A program made the position numbers and the translations under genes. DNA of 20,405 nt from IMG/VR virus record IMGVR_UViG_3300025727_000070, positions 1 through 20,405 of that record, one strand, 5' to 3'. The notes below the pieces were generated by a model that saw only the letters and a program-made list of their open reading frames with translations, did not search any database and was not told the origin of the DNA. Source of the stretch: a virus. Below are positions 1-20,326 of this stretch, piece by piece. Numbering within the stretch: position 1 is the stretch's first letter; every line of letters starts with the position of its first letter.

Positions 1-574
1 TGGCTTTAAACTTAAATCCTTGACCATATGTAAGAGAACCTTTTCTGAAATCATTAGTAAAATTAAAATTACCATCGTGTCTTTTTCTACCATCAAATGA
101 AGTTGCAGTATAAACACTATTGAAAGATGTTATCCACCTTTCATCACCTTGTGTAGAACGAATAGCATAATTAACCTGTTGTGGTGTAGATGAAATATCT
201 TCTCCACCACCTTCATCCTTACTAAATTGCTCACTAACATTTTCTGCAAGTACTGAAGATAATAACTCTTCTGCTACTTTAACTGCACATGGAAATAAAT
301 CTTCAAAATCATTAAAGACATTTTGTGCCCAATCTTCTATGGCATATATTGGTACACCAGTTATTGGATCACGTCTTACTATTTCTAATGCCTCTTCTAA
401 GGTAAAAAACTTAGTACGGTTATAATAAGTTACTTGAAATCCTTTTTGATCTCCTGTAATTGTATAATTACTACGAACTACAGTTTGTTGACAAGGGTCT
501 ACGTATGAATAGAAAAAGGATTGGGCAGAAACACTACTCCACAATAAAAAAATTAATATTAGTTTCTGCCACAT
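1..574 (-). CDS. Exported protein of unknown function, 3' part cut by the window edge
   Basis: An open frame of 191 codons runs from an ATG at 574 off the left edge with no stop. The protein begins with a typical Sec signal peptide: MWQK, a hydrophobic run, then a small-residue site near SVSA-QS (residues 13-19). The mature part has cysteines at about residues 28 and 96 that could form a disulfide. A mixed segment follows (about 55-110, with LEEALEIVRRDP and IEDWAQNVFNDFEDL), then a polar, glycine-rich stretch and a possibly beta-rich end. I do not recognise the family; CsgF, the usual partner of CsgG, does not match by eye. The gene starts 5 nt after the stop of the CsgG-like gene, with a GGGG-containing ribosome site inside that gene's end, so it is very likely in the same operon. 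Location should be periplasm, outer membrane or outside the cell. Confidence 0.75.
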   Translation of the reverse strand, partial: MWQKLILIFLLWSSVSAQSFFYSYVDPCQQTVVRSNYTITGDQKGFQVTYYNRTKFFTLEEALEIVRRDPITGVPIYAIEDWAQNVFNDFEDLFPCAVKVAEELLSSVLAENVSEQFSKDEGGGEDISSTPQQVNYAIRSTQGDERWITSFNSVYTATSFDGRKRHDGNFNFTNDFRKGSLTYGQGFKFKA

Positions 575-579
575 CCATT

Positions 580-1242
580 TTACCAACCCCTACGGTCAAT
601 TGCTTTTATAACATTGACTACGGCTGTCTCCATAGCTTTATTTGATGCGGAACTTAAAGAAGATTGATTCCAAGCCATATTAGGATTCATAAGAAATCCT
701 CTACCTACGGTTGAAGCTCTTCCTTGACCACTACCAACAACATACTGTGTATTCTCATTGTTAATCAACTTAACCTGAATACCAACTATTGTTTCATTGA
801 TAGTCTCCACCTTACCAGCTTTTATTTCTTCTTTTAGATTGACAGCAAAATCATAAATGGTTACATAACCAGAATACTTTGCCGTTGTGATTTTAGCCTT
901 ATTAGCTTTCAAATCATTTCTGATAGCTAACTGCATATCTCTGTCGGCTTCAATCATATTAAATCTACCGATATAAGATACAACGTTTTGAAGTTCTTGT
1001 GTTAGACCGAAAGCAACTCTCTTCTCTGCTAGTTCAGGATATCGTTCTTCCATATCTTTATTAGCTCTTACTTCAAGTATTTTTAATCCATCTACTTTAG
1101 TTACGACAACTTCATCCATTGATTTTTCTTTTTCATACTCACCTACATATTGTTCTGTTTGAACGGAAGCCGCACACCCAATTATTTGGGACATTACGAA
1201 TCCTAAAACAACAAACAATACAAAACGATAATTGTTTTTCAT
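580..1242 (-). CDS. CsgG-family outer-membrane lipoprotein (curli-type secretion pore homolog)
   Basis: The 220-aa protein has a lipoprotein signal peptide ending in the lipobox IIG-C, with the lipidated Cys at residue 23. The body fits the CsgG family: a GLTQELQNVVSYIGRFNMIEA segment, in which a helix leads into a 'GRF..IE' strand, a central strand pair, then VGIQVKLIN and a Ser/Ala-rich final helix (SNKAMETAVVNVIKAI). E. coli CsgG is about 277 aa and forms a nonameric outer-membrane channel for curli subunits. This copy is shorter, so whether it still forms a full barrel is unclear. No curlin-like (CsgA/B) repeat protein is visible nearby. A good ribosome site (AGGAGA) precedes the ATG. From memory, CsgG-like genes have been reported in some marine phages. 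Family assignment is fairly sure; the transported substrate is unknown. Confidence 0.78.
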   Translation of the reverse strand: MKNNYRFVLFVVLGFVMSQIIGCAASVQTEQYVGEYEKEKSMDEVVVTKVDGLKILEVRANKDMEERYPELAEKRVAFGLTQELQNVVSYIGRFNMIEADRDMQLAIRNDLKANKAKITTAKYSGYVTIYDFAVNLKEEIKAGKVETINETIVGIQVKLINNENTQYVVGSGQGRASTVGRGFLMNPNMAWNQSSLSSASNKAMETAVVNVIKAIDRRGW

Positions 1243-1251
1243 TGTTATCTC

Positions 1252-1644
1252 CTATTTAAAATCTGCTAAAGGGTCTTTAAGTAGTTCTTCTAACTTCTTA
1301 ATTTCTCTTTTCAAACCTTTGATTTCATTGGTTAAGTTAGCTACATCTTTATCATAAGATTTAACTTTAGGTGTTTTTAAGTTATCAAGTTTATCACGAA
1401 GATACTTGATGTCTTCATCATATGAATCAAGTTTAGAAGTTACCAATTCTATATCACTTGCATCTGCAAATCCTGTTACTATTTCTTCTAATCCATCAAT
1501 ACGACCAGTAAACGAATACCAACCTGCTATTCCTGTGGATAGAACCGTTACAAGAGCTATGATATTTTGGATTGATAATCCAAACTTTTTATTCTTCATC
1601 TCTTCTACAGCGGATTCTGCATCCACTACTTTATTTTTCGCCAT
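1252..1644 (-). CDS. Small membrane-anchored coiled-coil protein
   Basis: The 130-aa protein has a charged N-terminus, one hydrophobic helix (about residues 25-45, IQNIIALVTVLSTGIAGW) and a long charged helical tail (about 50-125) rich in Lys, Glu, Asp and Leu with heptad-like spacing (LTNEIKGLKREIKKLEELL). The short positively charged segment before the helix (KNKK) predicts N-in topology, so the coiled coil would lie in the periplasm. I recognise no family. It sits 1 nt after the stop-side end of the PorV/Q-like gene and 9 nt before the CsgG-like lipoprotein gene. An inner-membrane helix with a periplasmic coiled coil next to an outer-membrane lipoprotein is an arrangement also seen in phage spanin pairs, but it could equally be a scaffold for the secretion proteins. 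Confidence 0.72.
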   Translation of the reverse strand: MAKNKVVDAESAVEEMKNKKFGLSIQNIIALVTVLSTGIAGWYSFTGRIDGLEEIVTGFADASDIELVTSKLDSYDEDIKYLRDKLDNLKTPKVKSYDKDVANLTNEIKGLKREIKKLEELLKDPLADFK

Positions 1645-1645
1645 T

Positions 1646-2482
1646 TTACAACTCCAGGTTTATTGTTAATCTAATTGTGTTACTCAACGGTAACGTCTTG
1701 TCTCCATAAATATAACTCATACCAACAATATACTTGTCATATTTAAAATCTAATCCAAATGTGGGATAAGTTAATTCGTGCATATCATCCATATAATATC
1801 CAACTTTTCCCCACAACATATTTTTATAATTATAACTTGTTCCAACACCAAATGTTTGATGTTTTTCCATTTTATTAAATTGACCATAAAACATAAAATC
1901 TTTATATGGATATGTTCCAGCCACATTTACACTTGTGGGTAGTTCTGATTTATAACTACCGAACTTAGGTGCAAATCCAAAGTTACGAACCATAACATCT
2001 AAATCTAAATCTTTATACACTTTAGGAAAATAACCACCAACTCCAAATACTAAACCGTTTGCTTTTTGAGTATGTAAGTCGTGTGTTATTAGTTTTACAT
2101 CTAACCCTAAGTTATATTTACTAACCTTACGTGCATAACTAAAACCATATACTGCACTTAATGGTGTGAATTGTCCTTCTATAATTCCACTTTCATTTGT
2201 TTGATTTTGTTCTCCATAATTAAAGAACATAATATTAACTCCAAATGGGCCTCTGTCGACATTTATAAAATTATAACTCATATCATTAACGATATTAGTC
2301 ATCCAATTTACTCTACTAAAACTGAAATGGTCTTTATCAAAAAGATTACGGGCTGGGTTCATCATTGGTAACATTACATTACCAATAGAACTTACTTGAG
2401 CAGTTGGTGCTAAGGTTAATATTCTATTTGCTTGTGCGAATATACTACTAAAAAGTAGTAATGTCAATAGTATTTTTTTCAT
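1646..2482 (-). CDS. PorV/PorQ-family outer-membrane beta-barrel (type IX secretion accessory type)
   Basis: The 278-aa protein has a Sec signal peptide (residues 1-18, MKKILLTLLLFSSIFAQA). The rest is a series of amphipathic beta strands with aromatic residues, as in a porin-like barrel. Family hallmarks visible by eye are the N-terminal SSIGNVML...MNPARN (about 31-46), GPFGVNIMFFNYGE, then VYGFSYARKVSKYNLGLDVKL followed by GLVFGVGGYFP, and DLDVMVRNFGFAP. This order matches PorV/PorQ (UPF0164-like) proteins. In T9SS, PorV carries cargo from the translocon to the attachment complex and PorQ belongs to a related subfamily; which of the two applies cannot be decided. It is at the short end for the family (often 300-400 aa) and ends in NLEL rather than the usual aromatic residue. 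Its start overlaps the stop of the T9SS cargo gene as TAATG, implying translational coupling. A phage-borne member is unexpected. Confidence 0.8.
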   Translation of the reverse strand: MKKILLTLLLFSSIFAQANRILTLAPTAQVSSIGNVMLPMMNPARNLFDKDHFSFSRVNWMTNIVNDMSYNFINVDRGPFGVNIMFFNYGEQNQTNESGIIEGQFTPLSAVYGFSYARKVSKYNLGLDVKLITHDLHTQKANGLVFGVGGYFPKVYKDLDLDVMVRNFGFAPKFGSYKSELPTSVNVAGTYPYKDFMFYGQFNKMEKHQTFGVGTSYNYKNMLWGKVGYYMDDMHELTYPTFGLDFKYDKYIVGMSYIYGDKTLPLSNTIRLTINLEL

Positions 2483-5253
2483 TATTTCACCACCGTAAAT
2501 TTATTAGCTTTAATTCTATTATCTGTTTGCATTACAAAGATATAAACTCCTGGTTCTAATTTTTGATGATTTTCATACACACTCACATCAGGCAACCAAA
2601 CCGTTGGTTCATTTGTAAAATCAAATGTATGTAATCCAGTCAACACGTGTTCATTTAAAAGTGTTCCTATTCTTTGTCCAATAGAATTTAAAATATATAA
2701 TTGAACATCTTTTGGTTCATCTAAAAAGAATTGAAATTTAGTATTCTCTATAAATGGGTTTGGATAGTTATATGTTATTGCTTCTTCATCTGGTTTTCCA
2801 CCACCAAATGCCCAATACTTATTCCATACCCATACTTCACCATCACTCTTACTCATAGTTAAGTCTCTACCTGCAGGTGTTCCAGCTGCGTGCTTACCAA
2901 TAAAATTTATTGGAGCTTGTGTCCACTCAGTATCAGGAAACGCTGCTTCAAATACTAAATTTAATCCTACAATCTCTTTATCAATCCAATATCTTTCTGG
3001 TGCATTACTTGGTGAATAATCTACACCACCAAACGAAACCCTTTGCCAATTATTTACGGGTTCGTGAACATTTACATATGTCATCCACGGGCCTGGTAAA
3101 ATATCTGTTTTCATATCTATAAAATGTAATACCGTTGTATCAAACTCAACTTCAAATTCAAAACCAGATATAAGAACTCCCGCTCTCGGTGTAATAGTTA
3201 ACGGAACTTCTATCTGATTACCTGATTGAACTCTAACTGTAGAATCAGCGGGTAAAGAAAGAATAACGTCAACATTCTTAGATTTACTTAATATTCCTGG
3301 TGTATTATCTCCTATATTAATTTTTTGATTCCAGTTAGCTGGTGCATTACCTACCGCCCCCCACCGATAATATGTTGTGGTATTAGTTTGTGTCTGATAT
3401 GCATCACTACCAACTTTTGTACCTGTAGTGTTTATATCACCTGTAAAGAAATATGATAAACTATCAATCGTGTAATCTGGATTTACATCATTTGTTACTT
3501 TATCTGCGTGCCACGTAGAAGTTCCAGCTCCAACATTATAATGTATCGTGTCTAATCCAGTTATAACATCATCCATCAATGGATTTAAAGTTTCTATAGG
3601 GTTATATGTTAAAGCTTGAGCTTGATTAAAATCTCCATCTTCAAATACTGTAAACTCATATTTTTGTAGTCTTGATTGTCCATTTAAAGTTTGATAATAT
3701 CCACGAGCTGTTGGTGTTCCAGCTACGTGAAACGTATCTATTGTAGACCAATCCTCATAAGAGTTTCCATTATGGTGTGTATAGTTATTCATTATTCCTG
3801 ATACATAACTCCATAATATATAAGTGTCGTTTAACTGAAATAAATCATCTCCGTCAACATCACCAATAAAGTATTCAATAGAATTTAATGTGTCTATTCT
3901 ACCACCACCACTATTATAATTGTGATGTTTACCTGATTGGAAGTTAAATGACATTATAGCATCGGTTACATTTGTAATTTGATTTCTATCTAATTCAAGT
4001 TGAACGTGGTTTTCAATATCATCACTTGCATCAGGAGGCCAAAATGACATTCGGTATCCATTGTTTCTTGGTAACTGTATATTATAATATCCATTAGAAT
4101 CTGTATAAGTTGAATCATAATAAGATATACCAAGAAATCCCTCTGCGGGCACTACTTGGTCTGCTATTGTTGTTTTTTTAAGATAAAAATATCCTGGAGC
4201 TCCTGATTGATAATTACCAATAACGTCATCGGTAGTATTAGTTTCTGTTGTTGTAGTAGCATCTGTAATTGATTCTATGTTATACCAATTAGAATAAGAA
4301 TGTGGATTACTTTGGTCTAATTCAAATTTTATTTTCCAATATGGATATGTGTTGTCTGTTGCTGTAGTGAATGCTGCTGCAACGGCTCTACCTTTACCTT
4401 GAACATATCTTAAATAACCCTCTACATCTACTAACTTTGGATGTAATGTAATATCACCACGTGCACCACCTATACCAACTCCATCTTGTCCTGTGTTACC
4501 ATCTATATAAATTTGATATGTAGTTAGATAATTTCCATTTGTTACATAAGTATAATATCCAGTTCCAGCTAAATATTTAGTTGCTACTCTAAATGATTTA
4601 GCAGAAAAATTATCTACAACATCTTTTATTCTAAAATGTAATTTTAATAATTCTGTTTGAGTAGAATCTCCATTACCAAATGTGTGCGTATTTCCATTAT
4701 GAGAAACCATTGTGATTCTTAACCAATCATATCGAGCATCTGTAATAGATTTTGAAGTATCTTGTGTTCCACCTGCGGCTAATGAATCAGCATATCCTAC
4801 ATCAGCATACCTAACAACTTCGTAAGAGTAATGTGCAACTGCTGCACTATCTCCTTCAGTCCAACCATTTATATATGCACCTTTCTCTACGTGGGTTGAA
4901 TCGTGAGTCCAATCTATTAAATCATTATCAAATACTAAATCTAAACGAAAAGCAGTTACATCGGCATCGTTGTCATCAAGTGTAACAGCAATTGTCATTA
5001 CTGAATCTCTCCAAGCATCAAAGTTATTATTCTTATACGCAACACCTCTAGTCTTACTTTTATAAGTACCGTTAGTTGGATTAGCTAAACCAGTAGTATC
5101 ATCTGCTAAAAATCCTCTTAGCTTAAAATTTTCTTGTGCTCCCCACCAATACTTTGGTGTGTTATACTCCCTTGATTGCATAAGTCTAATTATTGGTGTC
5201 TGAGTATATACGAAACTCATCACCATCAAGAGGCTTAATAAAAATTTACGCAA
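2482..5253 (-). CDS. Large secreted protein with T9SS C-terminal sorting domain and cohesin/dockerin-like modules
   Basis: The 923-aa protein starts at a TTG with a strong GAGGAG site 7 nt upstream. Segments in order: Sec signal peptide (about 1-18); a beta-rich cohesin-like module (about 83-272); a carboxypeptidase-regulatory-like segment (from about 275, VEGYLRY, with SNGYYNIQLP later); a dockerin-like half repeat (about 460-483, GDVDGDDLFQLNDTYILWSY); a weaker GDIN match near 604; a second cohesin-like module (about 660-815, VDVILSL then FEFEVEFDTTVLHFIDM); and a T9SS type A sorting domain (about 828-923). The last has the hallmarks YNYPNPF, VQLYILNSIGQRIGTLL, LEPGVYIFVMQT and final KFTVVK. 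T9SS moves such proteins across the outer membrane for release or anchoring, usually cleaving the tail. No catalytic domain is visible, so a binding or structural role seems likelier than an enzyme. It leads the envelope operon and its stop overlaps the PorV/Q-like start. Confidence 0.85.
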   Translation of the reverse strand: MRKFLLSLLMVMSFVYTQTPIIRLMQSREYNTPKYWWGAQENFKLRGFLADDTTGLANPTNGTYKSKTRGVAYKNNNFDAWRDSVMTIAVTLDDNDADVTAFRLDLVFDNDLIDWTHDSTHVEKGAYINGWTEGDSAAVAHYSYEVVRYADVGYADSLAAGGTQDTSKSITDARYDWLRITMVSHNGNTHTFGNGDSTQTELLKLHFRIKDVVDNFSAKSFRVATKYLAGTGYYTYVTNGNYLTTYQIYIDGNTGQDGVGIGGARGDITLHPKLVDVEGYLRYVQGKGRAVAAAFTTATDNTYPYWKIKFELDQSNPHSYSNWYNIESITDATTTTETNTTDDVIGNYQSGAPGYFYLKKTTIADQVVPAEGFLGISYYDSTYTDSNGYYNIQLPRNNGYRMSFWPPDASDDIENHVQLELDRNQITNVTDAIMSFNFQSGKHHNYNSGGGRIDTLNSIEYFIGDVDGDDLFQLNDTYILWSYVSGIMNNYTHHNGNSYEDWSTIDTFHVAGTPTARGYYQTLNGQSRLQKYEFTVFEDGDFNQAQALTYNPIETLNPLMDDVITGLDTIHYNVGAGTSTWHADKVTNDVNPDYTIDSLSYFFTGDINTTGTKVGSDAYQTQTNTTTYYRWGAVGNAPANWNQKINIGDNTPGILSKSKNVDVILSLPADSTVRVQSGNQIEVPLTITPRAGVLISGFEFEVEFDTTVLHFIDMKTDILPGPWMTYVNVHEPVNNWQRVSFGGVDYSPSNAPERYWIDKEIVGLNLVFEAAFPDTEWTQAPINFIGKHAAGTPAGRDLTMSKSDGEVWVWNKYWAFGGGKPDEEAITYNYPNPFIENTKFQFFLDEPKDVQLYILNSIGQRIGTLLNEHVLTGLHTFDFTNEPTVWLPDVSVYENHQKLEPGVYIFVMQTDNRIKANKFTVVK

Positions 5254-5356
5254 TGTAAATCTCCTCGTTATGTTTTAAGTTAAGTAACCTTTTAGAATAA
5301 AAAGGGTTTTGATTTATTCCTTATATATAAATATCATATATATAGAGAAAATTTTG
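5254..5356. promoter_or_regulatory. Intergenic gap before the envelope unit, with AT inverted repeat
   Basis: This 103-nt gap separates the structural genes from the T9SS/envelope genes. It contains an 8-bp all-AT inverted repeat (5322..5329 and 5337..5344, TATATATA, spacer AATATCA) and a plus-strand TATAAATA at 5326..5333, partly matching the element at 8207 and 19799. A GAGGAG ribosome site at 5261..5266 (minus strand) serves the TTG start at 5253. A promoter for the envelope genes probably lies here, but I cannot place its start site. Confidence 0.4.
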
Positions 5357-6448
5357 TTAGTTTGTATCGAATCTCACAACAAATGCTAATGCTAATTCTT
5401 TGTCATTTTTAATCGGTTTTGATACTTTTCCAACTGCGAGTAGCTCATTTTCATCATTATACAAACCTATATTTGTAACGTATGTTGCAAAATCTGAATG
5501 GGATGCTTCTCCTATTAATTGAGTACCAATTTCATAACCTGCTGTACTCCACGAACTCGTAGCATAACCAACAATTCCATAATCAAATGTATCATTAATA
5601 CTATGACCGTCTACTGAGTGTTCAAATCCAGAAATCGCTACACTACTACTATAACCTTGTTTAATACTATTATTTGTAGTATGTTGAAATTCACTTTCAT
5701 CTGCTCTACATACATATTCTCTTTCGTATATAGTTTGTGTAGAATCAAATTTTATTGCAAATCCATTTGAACCACTATTTGTTCCGACATCCTTATAAGA
5801 ACCAGTATCTGTTATTACTGCGAGACCGTCATCGTAAAAGAAATTTCCAACTACACTACCACTTCCCTGAGCTGTAACAGCGTGGTTAGCATAACTTGAT
5901 GAGAATGCTATATCATATAAATTTCCTCTACCGTCATCTTGTAAAATAATAGTTGAAGCTGAACTATCATCAGTTATTCTTACTGAATTAGGTCGTACGC
6001 GTTCACCATATAATTTTTGTGGAACTGAAATTGCTGTACCGGTATCGTGTAGTTGTCGTGTGTATGGTCTTCGTAACTTATAAGTTCTTCTTCGTGTAGA
6101 ATCATCTAATGTAGATAATGGTTCAGTATATATATAAGATAAAACCGCGGCAGATGCTGTAGGTACTCCTCGAATATAATCGATGTTACCTCTCATTTGT
6201 GTTATATCTCTATAATATAATTTAAATATAGTTTGATATGATGGAACACTATAAAATATACTTGACGATATTGTTTTAGTGGCCGCAGTATTGATATCAA
6301 AGTTATGAAGATTTGAATCAGTTGGTTTTTCTAAACCTACGGCGTAGATACCGACAATACTATCAGACTCATTCAGAGTGAATGTTTTATGTGTTTCAAA
6401 TGAGGATATTAAAACATCTTCTGGTTCAAGATTTTTCTTGAATGACAT
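5357..6448 (-). CDS. Virion appendage-type structural protein, paralog of the adjacent upstream gene
   Basis: The 363-aa protein has no export signal. Two features mark it as a phage structural protein of the type seen in marine T4-like phages: a middle segment with GERVRPNSVRITDD followed by LQDDGRG.LYD and GNFFYDDGLAVITD (about residues 150-215), and a C-terminal block with VTNIGLYNDENELLAVGKVSKP (about 325-346). Both blocks recur in the 339-aa protein encoded just upstream, so the two are paralogs with divergent ends. It is probably a tail fibre, baseplate-peripheral or other appendage component; the exact place in the virion cannot be read from the sequence. The gene starts at an ATG with an AGGGG site and lies 12 nt after the stop of its paralog. 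It is the last gene of unit 2. Confidence 0.72.
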   Translation of the reverse strand: MSFKKNLEPEDVLISSFETHKTFTLNESDSIVGIYAVGLEKPTDSNLHNFDINTAATKTISSSIFYSVPSYQTIFKLYYRDITQMRGNIDYIRGVPTASAAVLSYIYTEPLSTLDDSTRRRTYKLRRPYTRQLHDTGTAISVPQKLYGERVRPNSVRITDDSSASTIILQDDGRGNLYDIAFSSSYANHAVTAQGSGSVVGNFFYDDGLAVITDTGSYKDVGTNSGSNGFAIKFDSTQTIYEREYVCRADESEFQHTTNNSIKQGYSSSVAISGFEHSVDGHSINDTFDYGIVGYATSSWSTAGYEIGTQLIGEASHSDFATYVTNIGLYNDENELLAVGKVSKPIKNDKELALAFVVRFDTN

Positions 6449-6460
6449 TTTTTACCCCTT

Positions 6461-7480
6461 TTAGAAATCAAGTTTAACTTTGATAAGTGCTTCTCTTGAT
6501 TTAGATTTTATAATTGGTTTGCTTAATTTTGCTATAGCTAATAACTCGTTCTCACTATTGTACATACCAACAGTTGTTATAAAAGTCTTTGGGTCTTTTT
6601 GTAATCCAGGTACAACTCGTTTAACACCTGATACCGATTCGGTATAAAAAGTTTCGTTTGTTGTACTATTAAACTCTTTAGCTGTAGCTCTAACAAAGAA
6701 ATGACGTGATGTTATTTCTTCTTGTCTTTTCGCCGAGAAGTATGCTCCTTCTTTTACTGCGTTAGAAAACAATCTAGCATTTCTATCATCACTATTAGAA
6801 CCACTTTTTGTAATTAGATTTAACGGAGCGTTTTGTAATCTAATTGGGTTAAGTACTAAACTACCTAAGCTTGGATAAAATAATCCATATGAACCAATCG
6901 TTGTTCCTTCATCAATCGCAGTTGTATTAATTGTAGTTCCACCTACAAGTGTACCACTAACAATGTTGTATTCAGGTGAAAAATTTCTTTGGTCTGTATT
7001 ACCACCTTTATTTGTACTTGAATCATCAATTAACTTAACTGTATGAGCTCCGTCATTTATATGTATTTCCCAACCACCTGGTTCTAACGATTCTCTAATT
7101 CTAGCTCTGTTGAATGTTAATGAGTAAAATTGTTTTACATCATCTAAACCACTAAATTTAAATCTTTGTGTTTGTGGTGGGTTTATCATATTATTAAACT
7201 GACCGAACACAGCTGCCGTAGTTCTATCACCTGTTGCACCTAGTGTACCTAAAGAAGCACTACCTTCAGCATGACCATATGCAACACCAAATTGAACAGA
7301 TGCTGATGTGTTAGTTCCTGGGTCATATCGATATACATCAACATTATAGTCACCAGTATTTGTGTATTGTGTAGATGATGTATGGAACGTAGTTATACTT
7401 GATGCTCCGTCTTGAAACACACCAGAAGTAACAATCGCTACATCTGATATTTTATCATCTTCTGTTAAGGGTTTATACAT
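6461..7480 (-). CDS. Virion appendage-type structural protein, paralog of the adjacent downstream gene
   Basis: The 339-aa protein has no signal peptide. It shares with the following gene a middle region (RARIRESLEPGGWEIHIND, KLIDDSS, then GSYGLFYPSLGSLVLNP; about residues 125-215) and the C-terminal block VGMYNSENELLAIAKLSKP (about 302-320). The N-terminal 120 residues differ and are rich in Gly, Ser, Thr and Ala, so the paralogs probably share attachment and body parts while differing elsewhere. I infer a late-expressed tail appendage or baseplate-peripheral protein. An AAAGGAA ribosome site precedes the ATG, and the gene follows the 222-aa gene by 18 nt. Confidence 0.72.
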   Translation of the reverse strand: MYKPLTEDDKISDVAIVTSGVFQDGASSITTFHTSSTQYTNTGDYNVDVYRYDPGTNTSASVQFGVAYGHAEGSASLGTLGATGDRTTAAVFGQFNNMINPPQTQRFKFSGLDDVKQFYSLTFNRARIRESLEPGGWEIHINDGAHTVKLIDDSSTNKGGNTDQRNFSPEYNIVSGTLVGGTTINTTAIDEGTTIGSYGLFYPSLGSLVLNPIRLQNAPLNLITKSGSNSDDRNARLFSNAVKEGAYFSAKRQEEITSRHFFVRATAKEFNSTTNETFYTESVSGVKRVVPGLQKDPKTFITTVGMYNSENELLAIAKLSKPIIKSKSREALIKVKLDF

Positions 7481-7498
7481 ATCTTATTCCTTTAATAT

Positions 7499-8167
7499 TT
7501 AAACGGGTACGTCAAATTCTGGAGAACCACCAGTTCCACTACCACCAGTTCCACTACCACCAGTTCCAGTTCCACCAGTTCCAGTATTATCTTGTGGAGC
7601 ATCTGGTGCTACTGTACTACCTTCATCTGCTTTTACAGATACAGTAATTACATTTACTATTCCAGAAGTTACACCTTGAACTGTAACAGTTGTTGTTGCA
7701 GTTGGGTTAATTGATTGTGCTATTACAGTAACACCTGTTTGAGTAACCGTTCTAGCTGAAGGCACTCCTTTAAATTTTACTATGTTTGTGTTTTCAATTG
7801 TAAAAACATAATTCTCTGCTGTTCCACCTATAGTAGTTGGAGCAATTGCTATTTCTGAAAATGGGTTAACGCCAGGGTAATTAAGTCGTGCAACATTTAC
7901 TTTAACACCAGCTAAAGATTGATTTACAAGAAAACTGTTAAACGCCCTTCGATTAGGTGCTGCCTCTAATAGAGACATATTCTCTATTGCTACACCGTAC
8001 GAATCTGTACCGTCTGGATGTGTTACGTCATATAGTGTATAATCTATTTCTTCATCACTAAGTGCGAACTTAGTAATATTAAAATTACCACCCTGTGAAA
8101 GTATCTGACGACCTCTCTTTGTAAGAATCGCATCTACTGTAATGCTTGAGTTGTCTAAAAAGCCCAT
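7499..8167 (-). CDS. Phage structural protein with Gly/Thr/Ser repeat tail
   Basis: The 222-aa protein opens with MGFLDNSSITVDAILTKRG and then FNITKFALSDEEIDYTLYD, a start I recognise from structural proteins of marine and T4-like phages. Residues 1-115 form this conserved part. The middle (about 115-180) is Thr/Val-rich and probably a beta-sandwich. The C-terminus is a low-complexity linker of GTGGS-like units (about 194-215) ending in PEFDVPV. The linker is encoded by a 15-bp tandem repeat. A tail-fibre-associated or baseplate-peripheral role is likely but not proven. The gene heads unit 2 after a 79-nt gap, with a TTGGAGA ribosome site before the ATG. Confidence 0.75.
   Translation of the reverse strand: MGFLDNSSITVDAILTKRGRQILSQGGNFNITKFALSDEEIDYTLYDVTHPDGTDSYGVAIENMSLLEAAPNRRAFNSFLVNQSLAGVKVNVARLNYPGVNPFSEIAIAPTTIGGTAENYVFTIENTNIVKFKGVPSARTVTQTGVTVIAQSINPTATTTVTVQGVTSGIVNVITVSVKADEGSTVAPDAPQDNTGTGGTGTGGSGTGGSGTGGSPEFDVPV
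7526..7585 (-). repeat. Four 15-bp tandem repeats coding for a GTGGS-like linker
   Basis: Four consecutive 15-bp units begin at 7526, 7541, 7556 and 7571. On the plus strand the first two read ACCACCAGTTCCACT and are identical; the third and fourth differ from them by one and two bases. They lie inside the C-terminus of the 222-aa gene and encode repeated Gly-Thr-Gly-Gly-Ser/Thr units. In-frame gain or loss of a unit would change linker length without breaking the gene. Confidence 0.92.
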
Positions 8168-8206
8168 TTTTTATCTCCAAGATTTTAAATTTGATATAAC
8201 TTTACT

Positions 8207-8222
8207 GTAAATAAATATATAT
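8207..8222 (-). promoter_or_regulatory. AT-rich element shared by intergenic gaps; candidate promoter for unit 2
   Basis: The plus-strand sequence GTAAATAAATATATAT is identical at 15 of 16 positions to 19799..19814, and both copies have an ACTTT block a few bases to the left. It lies in the 79-nt gap before the 222-aa gene, about 40 nt from its start. Its presence in gaps ahead of separate gene groups suggests a phage promoter. The T4 late consensus TATAAATA is matched here only as AATAAATA and on the plus strand, opposite to the downstream genes, so the working orientation is unsettled. Confidence 0.4.
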
Positions 8223-8246
8223 CTTCTAAGTTTTTCAACAATTTAA

Positions 8247-11200
8247 TTACTCCGAATCTATGATGTTTAAGTTTGTATCAGTAGAATCAGTTGGTACTGC
8301 AACTGTCGGTGAAGTTACTCTAATAACAATAGGGTAATCACCGTCAGTTGTTGTTGATATTGTGTTTTTTACACCTTCATAAAAACTGTTATTCAACGCC
8401 GTTATGTGTTGATAACCTGGGTCTAAATCAGTTTCTACTAAGGATTTTGAACTATACAAGTTTACATATCTATCGAGTGATGTTAATTGACTCTGTGCGT
8501 AATGTGCTGAACTTGTATAGTAAAATTTATATTGTTGGTTAAGTTCTGATTTTCTATTATCTAATATAATTGAACCTGTTGGCTCACTAAATACTTTATT
8601 AGGTCCACCATATTTAACAGAACCACTTATATAAAGATTTTCATCTCCAGTATATTTGTGTAATGAGTGGTTTAAATTATATAGAGATGGTGTTCTAAAT
8701 GTAGCAGTACTGTCTATATTACCTGTATAATTCGGATATTCAGTTTCTATAGTAATTATAGAACCACTTTGTTCTTGTTCACCATAAGCTGTAGTATCTA
8801 CAAATCGAGATACATTAATAGTATCTTCATAAAAGGGTTGTGTAATAGATGGATTATTTCTTTGAACTGGAGACTTTGACCTTTCAAAAATACTACCTTC
8901 AATTAAAGTTCCCATTTGAGTTTTTGCTCGAGCTGGTACAAGTTTTTTTAATTGTTTAAATACTGATTGGTCGTAGTATTTTATAAGTCGCATATAATCC
9001 CAAAAATTAGCACTACCTGAACCAAATGAATACTTTTTAAAATATTCATTAGATACATTTGTCAATCCAGTATAGTTCTCTTCAAATACATCTCGTGGGT
9101 CACCTAAATACTGATTGAAATCTAGGTTTGCGAATGATGAAATGATATCTTCATTTACAACATCGACTGGTGAGAAGTAAATTCCAAGTTTTGGTGAATC
9201 AAGTGGTGAAAAGTCATTTGAACTTACATCATATCGTTTATTTATACTTAATGCAGCTCCACTTCCACTTAACCAATTGTTTTCAATTCTTATTTTAGTT
9301 GCCATTCTTCGATTAGGACCTGAATTTGGAACAATAGTTTTTGTTTTATCAACTACAGGTTCAAATGTATTTTCACCACTAAATCCCTGAGCACTACCTG
9401 TTTGTGTATAAGTTTGATTAGCACTTACATCTCTAATACTATCACCGTCTGATAATTCTGTGTTATCATCAAAAGAGTATCTTCTTACTAAATTATAGTA
9501 AGATGAAGATGGACTATTACCAACATAAGATTTTGGATTTTCTACGTGAATATTAAATGATTGTTCTTCTAATGGTTCAGTCCATAGTCTGAACTCCATC
9601 ATTGAACCACCAAACCTATCAGCATTAAATATTCCTGAAGCGGTACCAGAACTATGGCCACCAATAAATAAATTACCACTACCTGTCCACGAAGCGTTAT
9701 ATGACTGAGAAGTCGAACCAGTTATGTTAAGGGTTGTTTTCGAAGTTTGTATTATTCTATCTAAACCAGCTTCATATTTTTTAACAAATAAATCATAATT
9801 AAAATTATCACCAATAGAATCTGTATTTGTTGCAACTTTTCTTAATGATATATCATCCCAAAAAATTGTTGATTGTGGTTTTACATTTTCAAATCGTACA
9901 CCTAAGTTAGTAGTATTTGGAAACTTCATTGTTTTTTGAACTACAATTTGTTTCCACTCTGTTTCATTTAAACCAATGTGTTCTGACGATTTTATTCCAC
10001 CTTCTGTTAAACTGTATTCAAATTCTTGGTCCCAATTTACAACCTCTTCATTTGAATCTAATTCAAATAAACTTAATCTACCTACAGAATCAACAGCGCT
10101 GGAAGAAACTTTTGCGTATGCTGAAAACGTATAAGTCTCACCTTGAGTTACACTTACTGCAGATATATTATCAGTTATATCATTTGATGGTTTTTTATAA
10201 AATTTAGAGAACGAAGAACCGTCATATGATGTATTTATGTGAACTAAACTTTTTGTACCAGACCTAGCTACGTCTGAACTACTAACTATTTGTATATCAC
10301 CGTTTTCAGCGTTAGAAATACCTTTTATAAATGGTGGATTAAATAAGCTTGCAGTTTCAAATGACGGAAATGAAAATAACTCAGGTTCAACCTTAGTTCT
10401 TCTTAACATAACAGAATGATATTCACCATCAAATACAGGTAGTAGTGATGAACTAATTTCTTGTAACCCAAAAGAACCAGTTAACATAAAGGAAACAGTT
10501 CCGTAGTTATCAACTGAATCATTATCTTTTAATTTTATAGCCCAATCAGTACCTTTTTGTACAAGTATTTGGTCTGAACCTGAAACTGCTCTAAATCTAA
10601 ATTCAACTGTATCTGGTTTTCTTTCACTATCATCATCGTCTGCCCAAGATGTTTCAATGTATTGTGTACCTTTAAATCTTAATGCTCGTGTAAACTTTCT
10701 AGCTATTTCAAATTGTGCTTTATGGTTAGCTTTTTGTAATCCACCATACTCACGAACTCTTAAAATAGAAGATGGTATACCATAACAATTCAATATACCT
10801 TTCAACGCACCGAGTGTACCTTTCGCTTTTAACAAGTAAGGCATACTTGCTATTAATCTTTTTGTTATTTCTTTTGAAACATCACTTTCAGGTGGTGAAC
10901 TTAATGAACCAGATGTGTAAAGTGAATACGTTGTACCACTAAGTTTTTGTCCAAATCCAAGTCTACTTAAATCTAATAAATCCTTACCGTCTTGTTGATT
11001 CCAACCTAATGACTTAGCAAGATTAAAAACTAAATCTTTTGAAAACCCTTCAGATAAATCATTTTGTCTATCTGTGACATCAGCCATTGCTGTTGTATAA
11101 GACCATATTTCATCAAATTGTTGTCCTATCATATCAAGAAAATCAAAAAACTGATTATTTTCTACATCTTCTCTTACGTGAGTTGGTAGTAGATTAACTA

Positions 11201-12515
11201 ACCTATTTTGATTGTCTATATCGTATAAAGACGCGCTGTATAATTGACCTGTTTTACTTCCAATACTACCATACCAGTTTGTAAACTCTGCGTGTGATGA
11301 AGTTATAGGTGCGTATGGAAATTCATAAGACCCACTACCAACTTTAGGCCAAGCAGCGTTTGAAATTTCTCCAATAGAACTTGTTACATAAGATGACTTT
11401 GTACTGTAAAGATAATTTTCATATGCATCAAGATTAGTTTTTACATTACGTATCTTATTATCAACAATAGTTAAATCTCGTTGAGAATTTGAAATGTTTA
11501 CTAACGACGCACTTTCTGCTGTGTATGTTTCAAGTAATTCAACTTTATATTTAAAGTTCTTTAATCTTTTCTCAGCTGATGAGAAGTTTATAAAATTATC
11601 ATAGTTAGAATAATCAATATTTAAATCTGTTGATTTCTCAGTTAAATATTTATCTTCAATTTCTTTTTGTAATCTCACATCTTTTGTAATTAAATCATCA
11701 TAACTTTTAAATTCAGTTGAACGTTTTGTTATAGGTGAGTCTACTTGGGCTGAATCAGGAACTCGTAGTACCAATACATCTTCTTCTTCTTGGTCATACG
11801 GTTTTAATTCAACGGTCTCTGTTACTTGTGGAAGAATTTCTCTGACGATATATACTTTATCTTTTTCTGTAATGTCATCTGGTAACGGTTCATATAATTT
11901 AAATATAGCTGAGTATGGTGAATCTTCAAATGTTTTACTATCAGTTTTTACATTGGTTGTGAGTAACATTTTATCATCACCAAAATGTAAAAATGTATTT
12001 AAATCTCTTTTATCATTTATATTATATGTTATACTGACATTGGTAAACTTGTCGCTTGGTAATAGATTATCTTCTGTAATTTGATTAGAAATTTTTTCTT
12101 TTAATTCGTTCCAAGAAGTTCCAAGACTAATTTCATTATCTTTTATATCAATAATTGATGAAACAAAAGGTGTGTAGATTGCTTTTTTATCATCAACCTG
12201 TGAATCTATACTAAATATGTATGTTTCTGTACCTAAAGATTCCATAGTAGGGTCGAGGTCCCCACCTTGTTTTCTTTCATCTCGAGGGTCAACTGATATT
12301 ATATAAGTACCATTGTTTACTGCTAATGGTTGTAAAAAATTAGTTAATGTAAATGTAACTTGTTTACCTTGACCACTCCCTACATTAAGGAAATTACCGT
12401 CAGGTTTGGTTAAACTCCACGTGTACTGGTCAGCTGCCGTATCAGTTATAAAAGAAATTGCGGTATCAAGTTTACCTTTTTTACTTTGGTCTAATCCACT
12501 TATTAATTTTATCAT
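8247..12515 (-). CDS. Giant baseplate wedge/appendage protein with gpI-like segment and nested LamG/CBM-like domains
   Basis: The 1422-aa protein has, in order: an Ig/PKD-like N-terminus (YTWSLTKPDG...GTYIISVDP); a charged helical region (about 270-370); a segment with ITKRLIASMPYLLKAKGTLG then LNCYGIP (about 548-585); and a concanavalin/LamG-like half (about 605-710, ending near GEYHSVMLRR). A CBM4/9-like module follows (about 711-892, GTKSLVHINTS...GETYTFSAYAKVS...IFWDDISLRK), then the second LamG half (about 895-1050, GNLFIGGHSSG and FGGSMMEFRLW), and a long tail. The PYLLKAKGT...NCYGIP segment resembles P2 gpI-type tail proteins, the counterparts of T4 gp7 in the wedge. With gp6 and gp25 upstream, a gp7-equivalent role is plausible. 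Sugar-binding folds suggest contact with host surface glycans. The ribosome site is weak (AAGACG); the gene starts 12 nt after the preceding stop. T4 gp7 is about 1030 aa, so this is larger. Confidence 0.72.
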   Translation of the reverse strand: MIKLISGLDQSKKGKLDTAISFITDTAADQYTWSLTKPDGNFLNVGSGQGKQVTFTLTNFLQPLAVNNGTYIISVDPRDERKQGGDLDPTMESLGTETYIFSIDSQVDDKKAIYTPFVSSIIDIKDNEISLGTSWNELKEKISNQITEDNLLPSDKFTNVSITYNINDKRDLNTFLHFGDDKMLLTTNVKTDSKTFEDSPYSAIFKLYEPLPDDITEKDKVYIVREILPQVTETVELKPYDQEEEDVLVLRVPDSAQVDSPITKRSTEFKSYDDLITKDVRLQKEIEDKYLTEKSTDLNIDYSNYDNFINFSSAEKRLKNFKYKVELLETYTAESASLVNISNSQRDLTIVDNKIRNVKTNLDAYENYLYSTKSSYVTSSIGEISNAAWPKVGSGSYEFPYAPITSSHAEFTNWYGSIGSKTGQLYSASLYDIDNQNRLVNLLPTHVREDVENNQFFDFLDMIGQQFDEIWSYTTAMADVTDRQNDLSEGFSKDLVFNLAKSLGWNQQDGKDLLDLSRLGFGQKLSGTTYSLYTSGSLSSPPESDVSKEITKRLIASMPYLLKAKGTLGALKGILNCYGIPSSILRVREYGGLQKANHKAQFEIARKFTRALRFKGTQYIETSWADDDDSERKPDTVEFRFRAVSGSDQILVQKGTDWAIKLKDNDSVDNYGTVSFMLTGSFGLQEISSSLLPVFDGEYHSVMLRRTKVEPELFSFPSFETASLFNPPFIKGISNAENGDIQIVSSSDVARSGTKSLVHINTSYDGSSFSKFYKKPSNDITDNISAVSVTQGETYTFSAYAKVSSSAVDSVGRLSLFELDSNEEVVNWDQEFEYSLTEGGIKSSEHIGLNETEWKQIVVQKTMKFPNTTNLGVRFENVKPQSTIFWDDISLRKVATNTDSIGDNFNYDLFVKKYEAGLDRIIQTSKTTLNITGSTSQSYNASWTGSGNLFIGGHSSGTASGIFNADRFGGSMMEFRLWTEPLEEQSFNIHVENPKSYVGNSPSSSYYNLVRRYSFDDNTELSDGDSIRDVSANQTYTQTGSAQGFSGENTFEPVVDKTKTIVPNSGPNRRMATKIRIENNWLSGSGAALSINKRYDVSSNDFSPLDSPKLGIYFSPVDVVNEDIISSFANLDFNQYLGDPRDVFEENYTGLTNVSNEYFKKYSFGSGSANFWDYMRLIKYYDQSVFKQLKKLVPARAKTQMGTLIEGSIFERSKSPVQRNNPSITQPFYEDTINVSRFVDTTAYGEQEQSGSIITIETEYPNYTGNIDSTATFRTPSLYNLNHSLHKYTGDENLYISGSVKYGGPNKVFSEPTGSIILDNRKSELNQQYKFYYTSSAHYAQSQLTSLDRYVNLYSSKSLVETDLDPGYQHITALNNSFYEGVKNTISTTTDGDYPIVIRVTSPTVAVPTDSTDTNLNIIDSE

Positions 12516-12527
12516 TTTACGTCTTTA

Positions 12528-13874
12528 CTATGCTACACGAATACAAGCTGGTATATGTATTGTACTTGATTGTCCGTCTTTAGGTTTAATTGTTAATTTA
12601 ACACCAATGTTCACGTGTTTACTATGTGTACGTATGGTTACTTGACTGCCTGTTGAAGAGTCTTGAGTAACTTTTAATTGTGAAGATACTGCGGCGGTGG
12701 GTTCTATAAATTCAACATCACCGTCAGACGTGGTACTGTAAGGTTTTACTTTATTCCATCCACCAGTACCCCAATCCCAACCTGTTAACTCCCACGTATA
12801 TTTAGTAGGTACATTTGGTTTACTTGAAATACTTTTTAATGTTATAGTATGTGGATTATCCTCACCCTGCCATTTATAACGTGGATAACTAACTTTACTA
12901 TAATAAAGTTTTTGAATGTCTTTTAAATTTTTAGCTGCGTTATTTCTAGGATAATCAATTATAGAGGTATCGACTGGAAGTGAGTCATCGTCTATACCCT
13001 TAAATATCTCAAACAATTCAGTAAAATTTCTATCACCCGAATCATAAGTAGCATTACTATCATCTGATATAAAGAATTGAGCTTGTATTACTGATGACTC
13101 TAATTCTTCAATTGCACCCAGAACTTGACTCCCGTCTGTAGCTTGTGGTGGTGGTAAATATTCTTTTATAAAAGCGTTATTAATTGAGACATAACCACCT
13201 ATCATTTGTTTTGATAATTGAGAAGTATCTCCTGATAATCTCATTGTTTTACTATCACCGACTAAAGAAGTACCTTGCGCATCTACGACAAGAGAAATAA
13301 AATCATTTTTAGCAATTTTTATTTTTTTTGATGTTTGTTGTGACTCTAAAAAACTATTTTTATATTGACTATCGTTAATAGATTGTGGAGCCAACCTGAC
13401 TTCGGTTCTTGAAGGTGAAATCTCGTGTGTATAATATTTATACTCTTTTAAAAATAACTCTCTGGAATTATCTGTATGTGTTGTACCTGTCATAATCTTA
13501 CCATTATTCATAATATGGTAATTATTACCTCTAAATATTCTACTATCTGAATCAACTAATACTGTTTCGTATGAACCCGCAACTTTCCTAAGAAAATTAT
13601 ATTTCACAACATACTTACCTCTATCATAACCCATTTTTCTAAGTATTGTACCTGTATTTAATTTTACTCCGATATCTAAATCATACGAATAATCTGTCGT
13701 ATCAGCAATTCCCGATTCTAACAAATTATCATTTGTATCATATATTAATACTTCTACACAATCATTTGGATTTGTTGTAAACTCACCACCGTAATAGGCA
13801 TTTTCTACTGTAGACAAATTTACTGTTTGTCCAGTTTGTAAAAGTTCTAAGTCTGTATCGTTTAATCTACTCAT
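12528..13874 (-). CDS. Virion structural protein of unknown position
   Basis: The 448-aa protein lacks a signal peptide. Its N-terminal part reads like an extended beta domain: DCVEVLIYDTNDNLLESG, then GYDRGKYVVKYNFLRKVAG and YKYYTHEISPSRTEVRLAP (about residues 90-165). The 'HEISPSRTEVRL' block recurs, to my recollection, in structural proteins of marine and Bacteroidota phages. A helical middle follows (about 245-330), and the C-terminus (about 340-440) resembles an Ig-like domain, with YTWELTGWDWG echoing the YTWSLTKPDG start of the 1422-aa protein. The ATG overlaps the stop of the preceding gene (TAATG). A tail or baseplate-peripheral role is inferred from context. Confidence 0.68.
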   Translation of the reverse strand: MSRLNDTDLELLQTGQTVNLSTVENAYYGGEFTTNPNDCVEVLIYDTNDNLLESGIADTTDYSYDLDIGVKLNTGTILRKMGYDRGKYVVKYNFLRKVAGSYETVLVDSDSRIFRGNNYHIMNNGKIMTGTTHTDNSRELFLKEYKYYTHEISPSRTEVRLAPQSINDSQYKNSFLESQQTSKKIKIAKNDFISLVVDAQGTSLVGDSKTMRLSGDTSQLSKQMIGGYVSINNAFIKEYLPPPQATDGSQVLGAIEELESSVIQAQFFISDDSNATYDSGDRNFTELFEIFKGIDDDSLPVDTSIIDYPRNNAAKNLKDIQKLYYSKVSYPRYKWQGEDNPHTITLKSISSKPNVPTKYTWELTGWDWGTGGWNKVKPYSTTSDGDVEFIEPTAAVSSQLKVTQDSSTGSQVTIRTHSKHVNIGVKLTIKPKDGQSSTIHIPACIRVA

Positions 13875-14416
13875 TATCCTATTGGTTCTCCGTCAGGTAT
13901 AGTTGCTATTTGACTATCAGTCAATGTTACTAATGTAAATAGTGCGTAGTCTTTACCATAATACACTGCAAGGTCAATAAATTTTCTTTTTTGATTGTTT
14001 TGTATCAACCATCTATCATAATTAGTTGGGTCTTCATTTGTAATTACATCACCGTTTTGACTTTCACCTGGTAATGTCTGTGCAAAATTTTCTGTTGCTA
14101 ATTCAGATATACTTCTATCAATTATTTTTTCTAAACTGTTATTTTTAATATATCTTGGATAAGATTGTGTAATAACTGTTTTAGATGATTCTTGGTCTTT
14201 TTCTGTTAAGTAACCAGAATATAATGAACTATTACTTATTTTTGCATCTTCGATACCATTTGAAGATATGATGTCTTCAAAAGAATATAATATGTTATTT
14301 TTTCTAAAACCGATTGATGCGAATTTTTGTAAATCTTCTAAGTATACAGTTCGAAGTTTACCTACGAACTCAGTATAGAAATCTACATTTTTTAATTCTT
14401 CTTTTGTGTATGGCAT
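13874..14416 (-). CDS. Conserved-looking phage protein of unknown function in the baseplate cluster
   Basis: The 180-aa soluble protein has an N-terminal helical segment (LKNVDFYTEFVGKLRTVYLEDLQKF), a middle with EKIIDRSISELATENF, and a C-terminal part reading YDRWLIQNNQKRKFIDLAVYYGKDYALFTLVTLT. I do not recognise the family. It sits between the DNRLRE-like protein and the 448-aa virion protein, with TAATG start-stop overlaps on both sides, so its production is probably coupled to theirs in fixed proportion. A small wedge or connector component is possible. Confidence 0.65.
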   Translation of the reverse strand: MPYTKEELKNVDFYTEFVGKLRTVYLEDLQKFASIGFRKNNILYSFEDIISSNGIEDAKISNSSLYSGYLTEKDQESSKTVITQSYPRYIKNNSLEKIIDRSISELATENFAQTLPGESQNGDVITNEDPTNYDRWLIQNNQKRKFIDLAVYYGKDYALFTLVTLTDSQIATIPDGEPIG

Positions 14417-15546
14417 TATAGACTTACCTTAAATGTAAATCCCTCGTCATAGTACTGGTCTAATTCGTCTGCTGTACCTTCGTCAGTTACTACTCTATAT
14501 TGTAGAGTGTAATATCTTTCTGGTTGATATCCATTTAAATCTAAATTAAAATAATTACCGGTCGAATCACAACTCATTTTAGAACCTGTACCAAATGGTA
14601 CTATAACGTCAGCTGTTTCAGCATCAGTAATTGAATAATATGAAGAACCACTTGGTAAATATTTTATTGTTAAACCGGCTGGTGTAGTTGAATATGTTTT
14701 AGATGGGAATCTTTCTCTACCAACAACTCTAAATTTTGCTCTTGAGTTTTCTTTATATTTAGGTCGTAATCCTTTCATATAAATTACACTATCTTCTAAA
14801 TTAGTAGATGTCAATGCATCTAACGAACCAGTAGACCAAGTTGAATCATCCCATACAGCCTCTAATGTTGGTGGGAATATCGTATGTGTATTTGATGAGA
14901 AAAATGAAAAATTACCTAAACGGTCTGTATTACCTTCTGAAGCTGAGGGGTGATTGTTTCCTACACTACCACTTCGTTTGACTAAAAACCCATCATTTAC
15001 AATTGTACCATTTAACCACGAATTTACAGTACCAGTAACATCTATTTTTAAATCACGTGTTTGATGATTAAGTGATGCTGATGCTGCCGGTGCTACACTT
15101 GAAGTATACCATATTCCACCTGCTCCATCTTCGGCTCCACTACCACTCGCCCATAATGTACCATTAGTTTCACTATATCTATATTTCCAACTACAACCAT
15201 CAGCTGTTTGTGGGTTATCATAAGAACGACCTGTTCCCATATCCCAAGAACCACTGACTGGGTATGCATATAAACTTTGTGATGCGGCTAGTGCTTTTGG
15301 ATTAGCGTCATATAAATTTAAATAATATTTGGCTGCTCTACTACCTGTGTGAGGTATCAATCCAGAAGCTGAGGCTTCTTGAAAATATGTTGTATCAAAT
15401 TTTATTAAAATTCGAGAAACGTCTACACTTGCTCCGGTATCACTAACGTTTTTACGAATCTCTAATATTTCATCCATACCAGAGTTTAAACTTGAACTCG
15501 CTTCAAAAATTGTAGTGTCTTTTTCAGGAAATATAAAATAATGCAT
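14416..15546 (-). CDS. Structural protein with DNRLRE-like beta-sandwich domain
   Basis: The 376-aa protein begins with FPEKDTTIFEASSSLNSGMDEILEIRK and ILIKFDTT, followed by LKIDVTGTVNSWLNGTIVNDGFLVKR, FSFFSSNTHTIFPPTLEAVW. This order (Dxx-I/F at the start, [R]xLIKFD, Vt...W.nG....GFl.k, F.S......P.L...) is the pattern of DNRLRE/CBM96-like domains, known mostly from extracellular proteins. Here there is no signal peptide and the gene lies between gp6 and other virion genes, so it is most likely a tail or baseplate protein using this fold. Residues 240-376 form a second part (KGLRPKYKENSRAKFRVVGRER...ERYYTLQYRVVTDEGT...FTFKVSL). The ATG lies 4 nt after the gp6 stop. Confidence 0.72.
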   Translation of the reverse strand: MHYFIFPEKDTTIFEASSSLNSGMDEILEIRKNVSDTGASVDVSRILIKFDTTYFQEASASGLIPHTGSRAAKYYLNLYDANPKALAASQSLYAYPVSGSWDMGTGRSYDNPQTADGCSWKYRYSETNGTLWASGSGAEDGAGGIWYTSSVAPAASASLNHQTRDLKIDVTGTVNSWLNGTIVNDGFLVKRSGSVGNNHPSASEGNTDRLGNFSFFSSNTHTIFPPTLEAVWDDSTWSTGSLDALTSTNLEDSVIYMKGLRPKYKENSRAKFRVVGRERFPSKTYSTTPAGLTIKYLPSGSSYYSITDAETADVIVPFGTGSKMSCDSTGNYFNLDLNGYQPERYYTLQYRVVTDEGTADELDQYYDEGFTFKVSL

Positions 15547-15550
15547 CTAT

Positions 15551-17533: not shown

Positions 17534-17543
17534 TTAATTACTC

Positions 17544-17969
17544 CTAAACTCGTTCTGCGGTGTAACCAGCGTCTAATGTTATTGACTCTGTTGTTTGTGG
17601 AGTCAACGTAGTAGAAAATTTCACTTCTACAAAAATTTTATTCTGGTCACCTTCGTTTGTGAGTGTGTTTACTTCTTGAATGTTAATATAAGGTAACCAT
17701 ACACCAGTTGCTCGTTTAACTTCTTCTTCAAGTCGTACTGGCAATTCATCATTTATTTGTTCAAAACAAAGAGCTCTTAATCTACTACCAAATTCAGGTT
17801 GTGCTACTCGTTCACCTACGTGAGTTAATAGTAAATTTTTTAAATTGTGTCGTGCTTGTTCTAAAGAATTTTTGGTTAATGCAAAATCATTATACTTATC
17901 TTGTCTTAATGGAAAAGATAACCCTATATAAATATTTGGATTTAAATCGTTTTCTCTAGCACTTGCCAT
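17544..17969 (-). CDS. Baseplate wedge protein, T4 gp25-like
   Basis: The 141-aa protein is of the GPW/gp25 family that forms the innermost wedge layer and links the wedge to the sheath. The core is intact: PLRQDKYNDFALTKNSLEQARHNLKNLLLTHVGERVAQPEFGSRLRALCFEQ (about 20-72), including the family hallmark of a helix followed by 'GER...P.FG..L..L.FE'. The second half (EEEVKRATGVWLPYINIQEV...KIFVEVKFST) completes the fold. T4 gp25 is 132 aa, a close match. The start codon overlaps the stop region of the upstream 148-aa gene at position 17969, indicating coupling. Confidence 0.93.
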   Translation of the reverse strand: MASARENDLNPNIYIGLSFPLRQDKYNDFALTKNSLEQARHNLKNLLLTHVGERVAQPEFGSRLRALCFEQINDELPVRLEEEVKRATGVWLPYINIQEVNTLTNEGDQNKIFVEVKFSTTLTPQTTESITLDAGYTAERV

Positions 17970-18415: not shown

Positions 18416-18423
18416 AATAACTC

Positions 18424-20210: not shown

Positions 20211-20221
20211 GTATATATATG

Positions 20222-20293: not shown

Positions 20294-20326
20294 GCCTCGA
20301 CTATATTCAGTTATAACCTATTTTTG

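Follow-up and report, generated by a model that had tools for sequence, protein, structure and literature searches.

Bacteroidota secrete proteins to their surface mainly by the type IX secretion system (T9SS). In the described systems PorV receives the sorting tails of the cargo proteins, and PorU:PorV and PorZ:PorQ form stable complexes at the cell surface (PMC5562754). Type B cargo genes often have a gene for a cognate PorP/SprF shuttle directly downstream, and a static surface complex with an additional envelope protein has been proposed (PMC12618676). Phages are known as occasional cargo carriers: a phage-encoded T9SS cargo was described in Cryophage (PMC7468147), and T9SS domains were reported in phages with BACON repeats (PMC6949934). 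Parts of the curli (type VIII) secretion system, CsgG/F, are encoded by pelagiphages and phage Melnitz, where their purpose is debated (PMC7029224, PMC9599517, PMC9004378). Here we describe a five-gene set in a linear virus record of 20,405 bases (IMG/VR record IMGVR_UViG_3300025727_000070; the whole stretch analysed is called the window), which encodes, in constant order and on the same strand, a predicted T9SS cargo, a PorV-like barrel, a coiled-coil protein, a lipoprotein and a second barrel. Our proposal, which we hold to be evenly balanced between right and wrong, is that a T4-like phage lineage uses this conserved, probably late operon to assemble a virus-specified protein complex in the outer membrane of its host.

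As in PorU-PorV and PorZ-PorQ, a tailed surface protein would be held by a PorV/PorQ-family barrel, and the porU-porV order in a Flavobacteriales metagenome-assembled genome (MAG) described below is the same as the phage cargo-barrel order; however, the phage cargo has no match to PorU (model NF033707, 0/9 cargo proteins) or to any peptidase family, the phage barrel is shorter and lies outside both equivalog groups, and the genes are viral. The set shares with type B cargo and PorP/SprF the succession of a cargo and a dedicated shuttle, whereas the phage tail is of type A and the phage barrel is a PorV/PorQ-family member rather than a PorP/SprF one. The Cryophage and BACON-phage proteins likewise carry a T9SS sorting tail and their phages are presumed users of the host T9SS, but these proteins are enzymes or of BACON type with no reported PorV-family partner; moreover, Cryophage cargoes differ between phage variants, while the present operon has a single cargo family in a fixed five-gene set. 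Phage curli genes are also a conserved outer-membrane export module in phages (the curli phages being marine), and the lipoprotein here may, like theirs, be of CsgG type. Their host, in contrast, has no curli system and their CsgG is recognised as such, whereas the likely host here has a T9SS, the lipoprotein is CsgG-like only by predicted fold and the cargo is T9SS-tailed. Neither a phage PorV-family barrel nor a phage cargo-barrel pair was found in the open-access literature (subscription papers and preprints lay outside the search). The original prediction that no phage system of this kind had been described therefore stands for the cargo with a PorV-family barrel, but was too broad in that phage T9SS cargo and phage curli CsgG/F had both been described; what appears new is the pairing of a phage T9SS cargo with its own PorV-family barrel.

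Conservation and apparent exchange of the five-gene set

The complete set, in constant order and with every gene on the same strand, was present in 84/84 loci with more than 4.5 kb of sequence beyond the cargo gene; these loci partly overlap, with several per contig, and without redundancy there are 35 distinct cargoes, which fall into 30 clusters at 95% identity. A scan seeded with the lipoprotein only, which serves as an independent check on the constancy of the set, recovered remote loci (~33% identity) that carry these neighbours too wherever the contig was long enough. Small membrane genes are variably present between the five genes across relatives. The ratio of nonsynonymous to synonymous substitution rates (dN/dS) was 0.13–0.28 for the five genes (0.14–0.28 for the cargo), which shows purifying selection on the set. 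A signal peptide or lipobox was read by eye in four of the five proteins, and the predicted mature form of the cargo, the PorV-like barrel and the second barrel begins with an invariant Gln. The cargo and barrel had been predicted to form a unit, and they are indeed always paired beside tail genes in many independent phage contigs, but the unit is larger, with at least five genes; the three envelope genes directly after the barrel gene had been missed.

The cargo family was found in at least 89 viral stretches and one genome contig, and neither cargo nor barrel had a match among 50,697 annotated phages. Searches for the lipoprotein and second barrel in 297 Bacteroidota genomes (198 for the cargo) identified only one MAG, on a single 9-kb contig, whereas the PorV family is common in these genomes (228/297).

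A promoter-like motif inferred upstream of the cargo gene (GATATTTAT, with TATATTTAT in many relatives; 5327–5335, minus strand) also precedes, as TATATTTAT/GATATTTAT, fibre and head (structural) genes, which suggests late expression of the operon. Positions 1–5344 of the window are 99.6% identical at the DNA level to locus L013, while the adjacent fibre proteins are only ~40% identical. This break, at 5344, falls immediately upstream of the promoter-like motif, and these sequence comparisons suggest that the set is exchanged as a unit together with its leader. The window-type junction recurs in L189 (100% identical over 5242–7012) and L188 (86% over 5232–18435); both stop only a few bases into the cargo gene, and so they confirm the arrangement of fibre gene, leader and cargo start, not the whole set in the window phage. 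A near-identical shared module of this sort could break or misjoin assemblies.

The leader also contains an inverted repeat (ACCYTTTT..AAAAGGT; 5286–5308, minus strand) between the promoter-like motif and the cargo start, which is possibly a regulatory hairpin. It recurs in several relatives, and other sequences replace it in distant ones.

Cargo protein and PorV/PorQ-family barrel

The cargo gene (2482–5253, minus strand) begins at a TTG codon preceded by a ribosome-binding site, GAGGAG (5261–5266, minus strand). Its 923-amino-acid product comprises, according to the open reading frame, family models and alignment, a signal peptide, an invariant Gln, a conserved body, a cohesin domain and a C-terminal T9SS type A tail. 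Both its position and the TAATG overlap of its stop with the start of the barrel gene had been given exactly in the original prediction, which also claimed a full type A sorting tail. The tail (YNYPNPF ... LEPGVYIF ... IKANKFTVVK; 2491–2766, minus strand) was borne out by the TIGR04183 model, which matched residues 830–921 with 23.3 bits (cut-off 23, E 4.7e-5; 26.1 bits in a whole-record search), a thin margin in the window cargo itself. The same model matched 9/9 aligned family members (best E 5.7e-7) and a distant relative at 39.4 bits, which excludes chance as the source of the match, and the tail motifs were recognisable in 29/29 aligned cargo proteins. The Pfam tail model PF18962 gave the window cargo 14.6, below its cut-off of 27, with 9/9 relatives matching at E<=0.1.

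Alignment of nine cargo sequences (A1; 63–87% identity to the window protein) showed in 9/9, by eye, a hydrophobic N-terminus of Sec signal-peptide type followed by the invariant Gln. The cargo is thus a putative T9SS type A substrate by its tail and signal peptide, with export via SprA/PorV predicted. A cohesin-domain match (PF00963, E 3.9e-6) at residues 672–717 (3103–3240, minus strand), overlooked previously, was present in 9/9 aligned members. The idea that a calcium-loop-like stretch of the cargo is a dockerin was dropped because no family model matched.

The barrel gene (1646–2482, minus strand) encodes a 278-amino-acid outer-membrane protein with a signal peptide. The PorV/PorQ family model NF033709 scored it at 104.3 bits (cut-off 90, E 9.5e-30), a profile of 24 barrel relatives (A6) found the solved PorV structure 6h3i (E 8.5e-14), and at E<=0.01 the relatives matched T9SS_PorQ (24/24) and PorV_fam (23/24). 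The same PorV-family profile gave weak matches to TodX transport barrels (E about 0.5). In a tree of barrels the phage proteins formed a single clade (support 97/94), with true PorV nearest, although this placement was weakly supported. The predicted likeness to PorV/PorQ therefore holds at the level of the family model and the PorV structure, but the cut-offs of both equivalog models were failed; by these profile comparisons, the barrel is a member of the wider PorV/PorQ family and no PorV or PorQ orthologue.

Three further envelope proteins

The gene following the barrel (1252–1644, minus strand) encodes a 130-amino-acid coiled-coil protein with a single N-terminal transmembrane helix, conserved in 12 loci (alignment A5) and matching only coiled-coil models; a spanin assignment was considered for this protein and dropped, as the matches are to generic coiled coils only. 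It is followed by a gene (580–1242, minus strand) for a 220-amino-acid lipoprotein (alignment A3), whose AlphaFold2 model has a low confidence (pLDDT, predicted local distance difference test, 54.7) and resembles the CsgG/PelC class. The top Foldseek match was CsgG (4uv2, E 2.6e-7), and CsgG, PelC and envelope lipoproteins of a similar kind headed the 44 library matches below E 0.001, with GNA1162 also matching. Comparison with the CsgG family by sequence gave no Pfam or PDB match. The last gene (2–586, minus strand) is cut by the record end and encodes the N-terminal 195 amino acids of an exported outer-membrane barrel, of which a full copy of 348 amino acids is present in L013. The AlphaFold2 model of that copy (pLDDT 57.9) has a helical N-terminal part and 12 strands, and its top Foldseek match was FapF, an amyloid-secretion barrel (E 1.6e-4). 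Searches by sequence against solved structures gave no credible match for the lipoprotein, the second barrel or the cargo.

Two genes past the operon in relatives lies a conserved membrane coiled-coil protein of 240 amino acids (L192:9840–10562, minus strand; also L017:5519–6277), the intervening gene encoding an exported protein. The 240-amino-acid protein weakly matches Rz-like and LysB spanin models (20.6 bits against a cut-off of 92.75).

Phage origin and probable host

The set belongs to a T4-like tailed phage lineage, as judged from gp6 and gp25 in the window and from gp23 and TerL on relatives. The 65-kb contig of locus L007 (G301) encodes a gp23 capsid protein (E 2e-78) and the terminase TerL, and G304 does likewise; downstream of the operon, relatives encode a NUDIX protein, a DnaG-type primase and SbcC. 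The model PF07068 had no match in 8/10 long phage records, which are perhaps fragmentary or divergent. On the longer relatives, genes for a T4-like capsid, terminase, primase and SbcC mark the DNA as phage and not as a chimera with host DNA. The possibility that host DNA had been joined by misassembly near 5300 was rejected: the break at 5344 has phage sequence on both sides, the set in relatives has phage genes to its left and right, and L189 and L188 share the 5' junction.

The single copy from a cellular bin (L017, NZWA01000008.1) is the 9-kb contig of the Flavobacteriales MAG; it carries the operon together with genes like those that follow the operon in phage relatives, and appears to be phage DNA binned into the MAG. 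This MAG encodes SprA (2384 bits), PorU (1074 bits) and PorV (496 bits), with porU, itself T9SS-tailed, directly upstream of porV, and has 42 T9SS-tail matches, including one that lies on the phage contig. SprA was absent from the six phage records tested (65–83 kb, all possibly incomplete), so that export would require the host translocon. Ten long, possibly incomplete phage records contained exactly one T9SS-tailed protein in 8/10 cases and none in 2/10. The invariant Gln after the signal peptide fits the Bacteroidetes Q-rule (PMC10653852), and this fit, with the SprA, PorU, PorV and 42 tails of the MAG, makes a T9SS-bearing host likely.

Ribosome-site usage was considered as a sign against a Bacteroidota host. 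Shine-Dalgarno-type sites precede 420/656 phage genes versus 91/656 at a control position, and 24/48 genes versus 4/48 on contigs of the Flavobacteriales MAG, G001 (L204, L205, L206 and L207); use in half of the sampled MAG genes is unusual for Bacteroidota as described (PMC6847099). Because phage genes and MAG contigs both use such sites, the test does not discriminate the host and the argument was dropped.

Proposed function and alternative explanations

In the mechanism that we propose, the 923-amino-acid cargo would be made late in infection and leave the cytoplasm by Sec, and its type A tail would then route it through the host SprA translocon. The phage PorV/PorQ-family barrel would receive the tail and retain the cargo on the surface, as PorV does with PorU and PorQ with PorZ, and the coiled-coil protein with its membrane anchor, the lipoprotein of predicted CsgG fold and the second barrel would make up the rest of the envelope assembly there. 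We infer late expression, the export route, barrel-cargo binding and a single complex. The cargo-then-shuttle gene order, which is that of described T9SS pairs, is the reason for seeing the barrel as dedicated to the phage protein, which it would receive or anchor. More specifically, and tentatively, since we rate it a little short of even, the lineage may carry a fixed T9SS cargo, a dedicated PorV-family shuttle and three envelope proteins that plug into host SprA, as a viral branch of the T9SS attachment machinery. These viruses probably rebuild the host surface late in infection. As benefit we would rank surface masking or remodelling against rival or sibling phages first, adhesion to cells or particles next, and help with exit last. 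The original suggestion that the phage redirects the host T9SS, for superinfection exclusion or adhesion, is likewise a hypothesis.

Several observations weigh against this proposal. The barrel fails the PorV equivalog NF033710 (55.9 bits, cut-off 250) as well as the PorQ equivalog NF033711 (62.6 bits, cut-off 220), besides being ~130 amino acids shorter than the PorV of the MAG (278 versus 410). Divergence is also faster in the barrel than in the cargo (median identity 43% versus 61%), unlike the simplest expectation for tight one-to-one binding. The CsgG and FapF likenesses come from models with pLDDT < 60 and are leads, not assignments, and the sole link to a host is one 9-kb contig in a MAG, the binning of one contig being weak proof.

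An operon for lysis or virion exit, with barrels and lipoprotein that weaken the outer membrane, coiled-coil membrane proteins in a spanin-like role and the tailed protein as the outer-surface part, seems unlikely to us. It would agree with the late-type position and promoter-like motif, and the transmembrane coiled coil and outer-membrane lipoprotein resemble an i-spanin and an o-spanin. The curli pore of phage Melnitz has been proposed as a lysis regulator (PMC9004378). The 240-amino-acid gene downstream of the operon is the one with spanin-like matches, yet these fall far under the curated cut-off, the five genes are kept alongside this Rz-like gene and do not replace it, and spanin action requires neither a 923-amino-acid secreted protein nor a PorV-like barrel. 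Rather improbable, too, is an adhesive surface layer glueing infected cells to siblings or particles, on the lines of the "sibling capture" proposed for pelagiphage curli (PMC7029224): the cohesin domain in all aligned cargoes and the CsgG-like and FapF-like predicted folds would suit it, but no amyloid-type subunit was recognised, no domain passed the dockerin family models, and the curli phage Melnitz showed no clumping (PMC9004378).

The barrel might instead act as a decoy, in competition with host PorV, and reduce the display of host T9SS surface proteins usable as phage receptors, with the cargo only a partner or blocker. The relationship of the barrel to host PorV and the many T9SS cargoes in host-type cells (42 tails in the MAG) speak for such a role; a conserved 923-amino-acid cargo and three more envelope proteins would be needless for it, however, and the motif and position suggest late expression, which would come late for exclusion by depletion, so that we find it quite improbable. 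Very improbable in our judgement is an uptake channel formed by the barrels to feed the infected cell, with the tailed protein as a surface substrate binder, because the weak TodX matches of the PorV-family profile are far outweighed by its match to PorV (E about 0.5 versus 8.5e-14), and a T9SS tail beside a PorV-family barrel is more simply a cargo-shuttle relation.

If the proposed surface complex is real, a conserved cargo and barrel set in many phage clusters would make T9SS control standard equipment of a virus lineage. There is a parallel in the pelagiphage curli genes, in that two groups of phages, whose hosts differ, would each have an outer-membrane export module. For the study of tail recognition by the barrel, the operon also supplies natural cargo-barrel pairs of the PorV family that are distant from PorU-PorV.

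Surroundings of the operon

Nearly all genes of the window lie on the minus strand. The operon had been placed directly downstream of a T4-like tail cluster; the baseplate wedge genes gp25 (17544–17969, minus strand, E 1e-18) and gp6 (15551–17533, minus strand, E 3e-25) support the cluster, but ~10 kb of tail and fibre genes separate gp6 from the cargo gene. This region includes a gene (8247–12515, minus strand) for a 1,422-amino-acid tail-region protein, a likely adhesin, whose carbohydrate-binding-type match (PF02018, E 5.5e-4) falls short of the cut-off. Two tRNA genes, for Thr (tgt; 20221–20293, minus strand) and Glu (ttc; 20326–20398, minus strand), are located at the record end, on the upstream side of the tail genes. 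A 73-amino-acid hydrophobic open reading frame (19917–20138, plus strand), on the opposite strand to the other genes, resembles a small membrane protein, with a weak PHROG match.

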